Assembly (NCBI GenBank): GCA_005882275.1
Contig: VBAK01000106.1
Location: 28,242-92,241, forward strand
Length of the DNA: 64,000 bases
Direction of reading: 5' to 3'
Source: Candidatus Segetimicrobium genomatis
GTDB taxonomy: Bacteria > Sysuimicrobiota > Sysuimicrobiia > Sysuimicrobiales > Segetimicrobiaceae
The notes under the pieces are model-generated. The model made no database searches. It had not been told where the DNA came from and saw only the letters and a list, made by a program, of their open reading frames with translations. Every line of letters starts with the position of its first letter. The first letter of the stretch is position 1. Of the stretch, positions 15,744-21,626 are shown piece after piece. The translations under genes were made by a program, and so were the position numbers.

Positions 15744-16646
15744 CTAGTGAAGCCGCTGGCTGGTCGAGAGCCCGGGCAGCTCCGTGGTCCACGAAGCGCG
15801 GCGGGCAAACGTGATGATGGCAGGGAGGTAGGCGCGGATCTGCGAGATCACGCGCTCGGGCACCATCGCGGCGCTGCCGCTGAGCAGCGTCCACCGGGTC
15901 TCCACCATGGCCGCGAGGTGCAGCGCGAGTTCCATCGGGATGATCCCGATGTCGGCGAGGGGCAAGAACACTTCCCATCGCCGGCTGGGACGCGGGATGC
16001 TGAACGTCGTGAGCATCGCCTTCGCGATCCCGGTGGTGGCTCCGCTCGCGTTCCCGAAGACGCCGATGATCTGGGTGACCCGCTCGGCATCCTGGGCCAC
16101 GGCCTCAACGTCCCGCGTGAACATTTCGATGATGGGCACGGAGGTGAGCACCCGGCCGAAGCGCCAGCCGATCCGGACCGGATCGAGGGGCCGCGAGAAC
16201 TGCGCCATGGTAGGCACCGGATCCCCCGCGGCGGGGAGCCCGAAGGTCCGGGCCTGCATGATCGATTCGTGCGCCTCCTCCAGCAACCGCGGCCGTTCCT
16301 GTTCCAGGCGCTCGGCCATGCGCCGCACAAACCCTTCGCGCTCCGCCGGGTCGTTGTCCGCGACCAGCCGGCCCCAGGTGACCACCTCGTGGATGACCGG
16401 GAGGATGTGGGCGTTCAACGCAAACGGCATGAGGATCCCAGGAGATTCTCCGAGCGGGTTGCTGCTCGTCAGCCCCTCGAGATACTCCGCGACCGCCTCG
16501 GGGGTCATCGTGTTGCGAAAGAGGAGCCCGATCTCGATGTCGGAGTCCGGCCACGTGCGATCCGTTGCCGGCTGGCCGTACAGGTAGGCCGCGGCCACCT
16601 CTTCTTCGCCGCTGAAAAACGCCCCCAGATGCTCGAACGCCGTCAT
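15744..16646 (-). CDS. Nucleotidyltransferase-like protein with helical C-terminal region
   Basis: 300 residues, mostly unrecognised. Near the N-terminus AYLYGQPATDRTWPDSDIEI resembles the MNT/pol-beta nucleotidyltransferase motif (GSxxxG...SDIDL), but GQ replaces GS and the second Gly is missing. The remaining 220 residues are helical and hydrophobic in parts. RPRLLEEAH fits an R-x5-H pattern as in HEPN RNases, but that pattern is short and easily random. ATG 16646 chosen because TAGAAT, a possible -10 box, lies about 35 bases upstream. It might be an aminoglycoside-type nucleotidyltransferase or a fused MNT-HEPN-like protein. Confidence 0.55.
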   Translation of the reverse strand: MTAFEHLGAFFSGEEEVAAAYLYGQPATDRTWPDSDIEIGLLFRNTMTPEAVAEYLEGLTSSNPLGESPGILMPFALNAHILPVIHEVVTWGRLVADNDPAEREGFVRRMAERLEQERPRLLEEAHESIMQARTFGLPAAGDPVPTMAQFSRPLDPVRIGWRFGRVLTSVPIIEMFTRDVEAVAQDAERVTQIIGVFGNASGATTGIAKAMLTTFSIPRPSRRWEVFLPLADIGIIPMELALHLAAMVETRWTLLSGSAAMVPERVISQIRAYLPAIITFARRASWTTELPGLSTSQRLH

Positions 16647-16721
16647 CCCCGCTGCGCCCCCGGCTATTGCCCCGACTATTGATTCTAGCACAGGGCGGCG
16701 CCGGCGATCGGCCCGGGCGCC

Positions 16722-21251
<4,530 letters not shown>

Positions 21252-21335: not shown

Positions 21336-21490
21336 AAAAAGCCCGAGGGAGCGATCCTCTGAGTGAGAGGAACCTCTCCCTCGGGCTTTTATCCCGAAGG
21401 TGTGGCGCCGCGTGGGCTGCCCGTGCCGCTCGGTCCTGACCGGCCGCTCGTGGAGGCCGCGGAACCCTAGGCACGCTCCCTCTCGCGCCT
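21336..21490 (-). ncRNA. ykkC-class riboswitch (ppGpp or PRPP subtype likely) in the gltB leader
   Basis: The minus-strand leader holds the conserved ykkC blocks in order: CTAGGGTTCCG (21460-21470), GGTCAGGACCGAG (21430-21442), CACACC, and GGGATAAAAGCCCGAGGG (21377-21394). Known subtypes bind guanidine, ppGpp, PRPP or nucleoside diphosphates. Association with a glutamate synthase gene fits the ppGpp subtype as I recall it. Because the terminator uses part of the aptamer, ligand binding should allow read-through (an ON switch). Subtype cannot be fixed by eye. Confidence 0.85.
21337..21390 (-). terminator. Riboswitch-controlled terminator before gltB
   Basis: Perfect 15-bp arms at 21376-21390 and 21337-21351 with a 24-base loop, ending GGGCTTTTT on the minus strand. 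The first arm is also the conserved 3' part of the ykkC aptamer, so aptamer folding and terminator folding exclude each other. The second arm can instead pair with GAGGGAGCG at the aptamer 5' edge. Confidence 0.85.
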
Positions 21491-21597: not shown

Positions 21598-21626
21598 TTA
21601 CTATCAAAAGACGAACAGGTTGTCAA
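21598..21626 (-). promoter_or_regulatory. Promoter of gltB with long leader
   Basis: TTGACA at 21621-21626 and TAGTAA at 21598-21603 on the minus strand, 17 bases apart, with TG-A before the -10. It lies in a locally AT-rich stretch. The implied leader of about 340 bases contains the riboswitch and terminator. Confidence 0.6.

Follow-up and report, generated by a model that had tools for sequence, protein, structure and literature searches.

The window, that is the whole stretch of 64,000 nucleotides analysed here, carries on its minus strand the gltB gene encoding the large subunit of glutamate synthase (16722..21251), whose product matches NF008730 as a full subunit with 1744 bits for a cut-off of 1047. 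No ATG, GTG or TTG codon is present between the upstream stop codon and the conserved N-terminus SGLYHPRFEHDSCGVGF. The start was taken to be the ATC at 21251-21249 (minus strand), which follows an AGGAGG motif and corresponds to an ATG in the relatives G001, G002 and G007; this ATC is either a rare start codon or a base-call error. The open reading frame directly downstream of gltB (15747-16691, minus strand) gives a weak match, below the cut-off, to an MntA-type adenylyltransferase antitoxin (26.7 bits, cut-off 60). Upstream of gltB, a ykkC-fold aptamer overlapping a 15-bp terminator-like hairpin occupies positions 21487-21336 of the minus strand, itself preceded by a probable promoter of the extended -10 type (21598..21626, minus strand) composed of TTGACA, a 17-nt spacer ending in TGA, and TAGTAA. 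A generic consensus scan of the leader listed neither promoter sites nor the terminator hairpin, so that the promoter call rests on conservation: TTGACA followed after 17 nt by TAnnnn, with a TG before the -10 element, is found in all ten gltB leaders inspected in the window's family (nine with an intact aptamer and that of G002). In G008 and G010, the promoter ends 6 nt ahead of the aptamer model, a gap which supports the 5' boundary given to the aptamer.

The conserved ykkC blocks CTAGGGTTCCG, GGTCAGGACCGAG and GGGATAAAAGCCCG were all found, in this order, on the minus strand, as the preliminary description of this DNA had claimed. A comparison with the Rfam covariance models, proposed there as a check, yielded in a permissive search a significant full-model match to RF00442 (Guanidine-I) with 50.2 bits and an E-value of 4.5e-8 for 501 bases searched, yet one below the Rfam gathering score of that family, which is 63 bits. 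RF00442 was the only ykkC-type family among the matches listed for the leader. Because of this low score the leader RNA is missed at the gathering score, and such a search over the whole window returned no match. When the 3.7-Mb genome was searched with RF00442, the leader RNA was the sole match at E ≤ 10 (E 8.1e-8), and the folding z-score of the leader was -4.05, none of 200 shuffled sequences being equally stable. The covariance E-value, the single match in the genome and the folding z-score together argue that the match is not due to chance. Matches to mir-550 and other miRNAs at the hairpin were dismissed as chance similarity to a long stem.

Related RNAs were sought in 61 genomes. At E ≤ 0.001, RF00442 gave at least 44 matches in at least 33 of them, these counts being lower bounds since at most 52 candidates were scored per genome. 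All 33 are among the 43 genomes of the order, and none of the 18 more distant genomes gave a match among the candidates scored. Only eight of the 44 RNAs pass the gathering cut-off. A covariance model, R1, was built from 43 of them, L044 with its long P2 being left out, and it finds all 44 RNAs again, L044 scoring 76.9 bits. The aptamer of the window (21364..21487, minus strand; helices P0, P1, P1a/P1b, P2 and P3) scores 115.9 bits with R1, its own sequence being among the 43 used, fills all 124 model positions and retains the invariant letters. The ACACC at 21399..21403 (minus strand), which in our alignment corresponds to A74 C75 A76 C77 C78 in the aptamer from T. mathranii, falls in columns that are almost invariant among the 43 RNAs; in PMC6031431, C75 is described as the pairing partner of the ppGpp base in a mutant structure. 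Two structural variants were seen. L044, which lies before gltB in G020, has a P2 region of much increased size, with 171 bases matched, and a match to P0 that is short. Four gltB leaders of family f2 (L034, L037, L038 and L039) carry, as judged by eye, a long extra hairpin located after the P0 3' strand and ahead of the distal terminator arm.

In the R1 alignment, 98.1% of the 1404 pair cells hold standard pairs, and double-sided changes occur in 17 of the 32 pairs and in five of the six helices, compared with a mean of 8.1 pairs after shuffling; none of 500 shuffles reached 17. Versions of the alignment that had been slid were at most 48.8% paired. In P1a, a helix of two pairs, changes are confined to one side. 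The six modelled pairs of P0 are 98.9% paired with double changes at four of them, each in one or two sequences. Since the alignment was fitted to R1 and leans towards the model, the shuffles and slides serve as controls and not as proof; the counting of pairs on such an alignment, together with the small number of sequences behind each double change in P0, weighs against reading the leader as a ppGpp switch.

The ykkC subtypes can be told apart by a few residues. According to PMC6031431, guanidine-I RNAs have A as residue 49 where those of the PRPP and ppGpp classes have a pyrimidine, G96 is the mark of the PRPP class, and helix P0 separates the ppGpp and PRPP aptamers from guanidine-I; the primers given in that source fix the numbering of the 3' end. 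In the window, the equivalent of position 49 is C (21428, minus strand) and that of position 96 is A (21381, minus strand). The C is found in 44 of 44 RNAs, as are the A following GCCYG and the residues A5 and G6. The leader RNA thus combines the characters of subtype 2a, namely the P1-P3 core, a pyrimidine at 49, a residue other than G at 96 and a P0 helix with A5-G6. As a control set, RF00442 was run over 82 genomes from the class of G067 (Peptococcaceae), giving 113 matches in 52 genomes, of which the 30 higher-scoring loci were read; their genes were labelled by NCBIfam for representatives and by shared sequence for the rest, and some of the 3' blocks were read from the printed sequence. 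Fourteen of the 30 show A49 and GGGAG after GCCY, that is the guanidine type, and five of these precede SMR-like genes; the other 16 show C49. Among the C49 controls, the GCCC-to-UU stretch of the five preceding purB is 11 nt long and includes G96, and the seven preceding ilvE or ilvD have a 10-nt block with A96, which is the layout of the window RNA. Four more precede the branched-chain amino acid gene cimA and have a block of 8-9 nt with G as its second letter (read by eye). The window block is equal in length to that of the seven ilvE/ilvD controls and differs from that of the four cimA controls. The G-bearing block of the latter indicates that marker 96 reads differently in some amino-acid-linked RNAs, and these four RNAs, which a simple position-96 rule does not place, count against the ppGpp-class assignment.

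The genes downstream of the 44 RNAs, identified by tblastn to representatives, are gltB in 24 cases, ilvB in 15, a related ThDP enzyme in three and cimA in two. All nine intact copies of the window's family sit before gltB. Conversely, gltB was detected in 27 of the 43 genomes of the order, and in 22 of these 27 an intact RNA lies directly upstream. The leader of G002 holds a relic, that of G004 is cut by the contig end, and the gltB loci examined in G019, G022 and G032 hold no ykkC RNA. The remaining two of the 24 gltB leaders belong to G033 and G034, whose contigs end inside gltB. A T-box, at the gathering score, follows the ykkC RNA at nine of the 44 loci, with ilvB downstream in six cases and the ThDP enzyme gene in three. 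The latter three are L005, L023 and L025, and the enzymes of L005 and L025 have TPP_enzyme_N/M domains with no NCBIfam match at 1e-20. The nine loci resemble the ppGpp/T-box tandem leaders already published (PMC9481103), unlike the gltB leaders, none of which (0/24) has a T-box at the gathering score. Branched-chain amino acid genes, glutamate synthases and natA transporters are given as targets of subtype 2a in PMC5912903, and PMC7266159 describes the ppGpp class as activating branched-chain amino acid and glutamate synthesis. By its markers, its P0 helix and its target genes, the leader RNA is therefore consistent with the ppGpp riboswitch, ykkC subtype 2a.

Other identities were weighed against these data. 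The fold, C49 and P0 are common to 2a and 2b and would also suit a PRPP riboswitch (subtype 2b) upstream of gltB. The window RNA nevertheless has A in place of G96, 1 nt is missing from its GCCC-to-UU block in comparison with the PRPP RNA of T. mathranii and all five purB controls, and a purine gene lies downstream of none of the 44 RNAs; we consider this identity very unlikely. The preliminary description had proposed an aptamer of the ppGpp or PRPP type, and between the two the sequence markers point to ppGpp. By gene context, an NDP riboswitch (2c) is not supported, as NUDIX or HAD hydrolase genes lie downstream of none of the 44 RNAs. That the best Rfam model is RF00442, with which the leader shares the P1-P3 core and most conserved letters, speaks for a guanidine-I riboswitch. 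Such an identity is scarcely credible given the score below the gathering threshold, the presence of C instead of A at 49, of A instead of G at 96 and of a P0 helix, and downstream genes which are gltB, ilvB, the ThDP enzyme and cimA.

It could also be supposed that the hairpin is a constitutive terminator accompanied by a decayed aptamer, as the congener G002 has such a relic, scoring 31.2 bits, in which the P1 strands are lost and the hairpin is kept. The window copy fills its 124 model positions at 115.9 bits with intact invariant letters, and decay is highly improbable here. The relic (L128 1303-1404), which precedes gltB in a genome of the same genus, has also lost the P0 match and keeps its promoter, and it constitutes a natural aptamer-less leader.

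The terminator-like hairpin (21336..21390, minus strand; predicted -38.3 kcal/mol) consists of a perfect 15-bp lower stem, formed by the arms AAAAGCCCGAGGGAG (21390-21376) and CTCCCTCGGGCTTTT (21351-21337), and ends with TTTTT. The earlier claim that the last ykkC block is itself one arm of a perfect 15-bp terminator is thereby borne out. The 5' strand of P0, GAGAGGGA (21477..21484, minus strand), pairs with 21372-21365, and its 3' strand, TTCCTCTC (21365..21372, minus strand), also lies inside the hairpin. The hairpin thus overlaps the 3' strands of both P3 and P0 and is predicted to form the platform, mutually exclusive with P0 and P3, that characterises subtype 2a. For the full-length RNA, the predicted fold favours the terminator, with -80.0 kcal/mol compared to -62.6 kcal/mol when the aptamer is forced, energies which include no ligand or tertiary contribution; an RNA ending at P0 is predicted to form P0 and P3 together with most of P1. 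A terminator with only five T, missed by the generic scan, is a point against the ppGpp-switch reading.

Fold, covariation, C49 with a residue other than G at 96, P0, the overlap of the terminator with the 3' strands of P3 and P0, and the gltB target can all be read from the sequences themselves. On these grounds, the gltB leader very probably comprises an aptamer with the ppGpp-class (2a) markers, overlapped by a terminator-like hairpin, and gltB is predicted to be ON when ppGpp is bound. In the published model of a ppGpp riboswitch, the ligand stabilises the P0 helix, named P1 there, against the terminator (PMC10687018). We infer that the same ON-switch logic most likely applies to the gltB leader. 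Without ppGpp, P0 would be labile, and pairing of AAAAGCCCGAGGGAG with the distal arm would end transcription ahead of gltB; bound ppGpp would keep P0 and P3 closed and the hairpin blocked, and gltB would be transcribed, which would raise the supply of glutamate during the stringent response. The 2a marks and the overlapping stop hairpin suggest that more glutamate is likely to be made when ppGpp rises. One RelA/SpoT match, located in an 890-aa frame, was found in the genome. A ykkC-class RNA acting on gltB by predicted attenuation, the main proposal of the preliminary description, is hence supported by sequence, covariation and context.

The preliminary description had further placed the switch in a pairing between the other terminator arm and the 5' edge of the aptamer. 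Such a pairing does exist in the window, where GAGGGAGCG (21474..21482, minus strand) is a 9-nt complement of the distal arm CGCTCCCTC (21353-21345), but it is confined to the window's family, and it is P0 that is conserved as a pairing throughout the order. All 9 nt are found in five of the nine intact members, the window and four relatives, and 7 nt in three more (L026, L031 and L043). In L043 the longest match lies elsewhere than the 7-nt arm pairing, and in L030 it is the T-tract that is matched. None of the 35 RNAs outside the family reaches 9 nt, yet P0 is kept there; a match of 7-8 nt occurs in 15 of these 35, mostly with T-rich stretches. Shuffle tests gave p ≤ 0.05 for five of nine family members (L043 by way of its different match) compared with two of 35 elsewhere, and shuffled sequences equalled the length of the match in 2.5% of the trials for the window and in up to 54% for other members. 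It is consequently doubtful that, with a ppGpp-type aptamer, the switch within this family is decided by pairing of the 5' edge to the distal terminator arm and not by P0 alone. As the two purine tracts are similar, the 5'-edge match may be a by-product, and we have treated it as either a family-specific extra or such a by-product. The 5'-edge pairing uses the strand of P0 and would oppose the bound aptamer. One may tentatively imagine, with little likelihood, a third state in the window's family in which the 5' strand of P0 captures the distal arm (GAGGGAGYG with CGCTCYCTC), so that a three-way contest between P0, the terminator and a long-range antiterminator would set gltB expression and allow a basal readthrough without ppGpp, absent in the other families.

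With the ppGpp-responsive ON switch retained as the preferred reading, the window RNA resembles subtype 2a (Sherlock, Sudarsan and Breaker 2018) in its fold, P0, C49, a residue other than G at 96 and terminator platform, and in targets that are genes for glutamate synthase or for branched-chain amino acids, as these are described in PMC5912903, PMC6031431 and PMC7266159. It differs from the known 2a RNAs in its spread across the present order and in a family linked to gltB only, with the extra complement to the distal arm. The mechanism and the link to gltB having been published already, the window RNA extends a known system and is best taken as a new example of a ppGpp-type switch, its ligand and switching being predicted. 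Our literature search met no experimental study of a gltB-linked ppGpp riboswitch, and we do not claim that none is in print. If the ligand is as predicted, the stringent signal would be tied to ammonia assimilation by RNA alone, without a protein regulator, across the order. Searches at the Rfam gathering score leave most of these RNAs unlabelled and name the rest (8/44) guanidine switches.

R1 was also run against 80 named gltB loci (L045-L124, the top 80 among at least 591) and gave no convincing match, the weak one at E 0.14 being in L102, whose gltB lies about 2.3 kb downstream. In eight whole genomes behind the named gltB loci, R1 gave two weak matches, L157 and L158, and L157, from Clostridium caldaquaticum, is by eye of the guanidine type, with A49 and G96.
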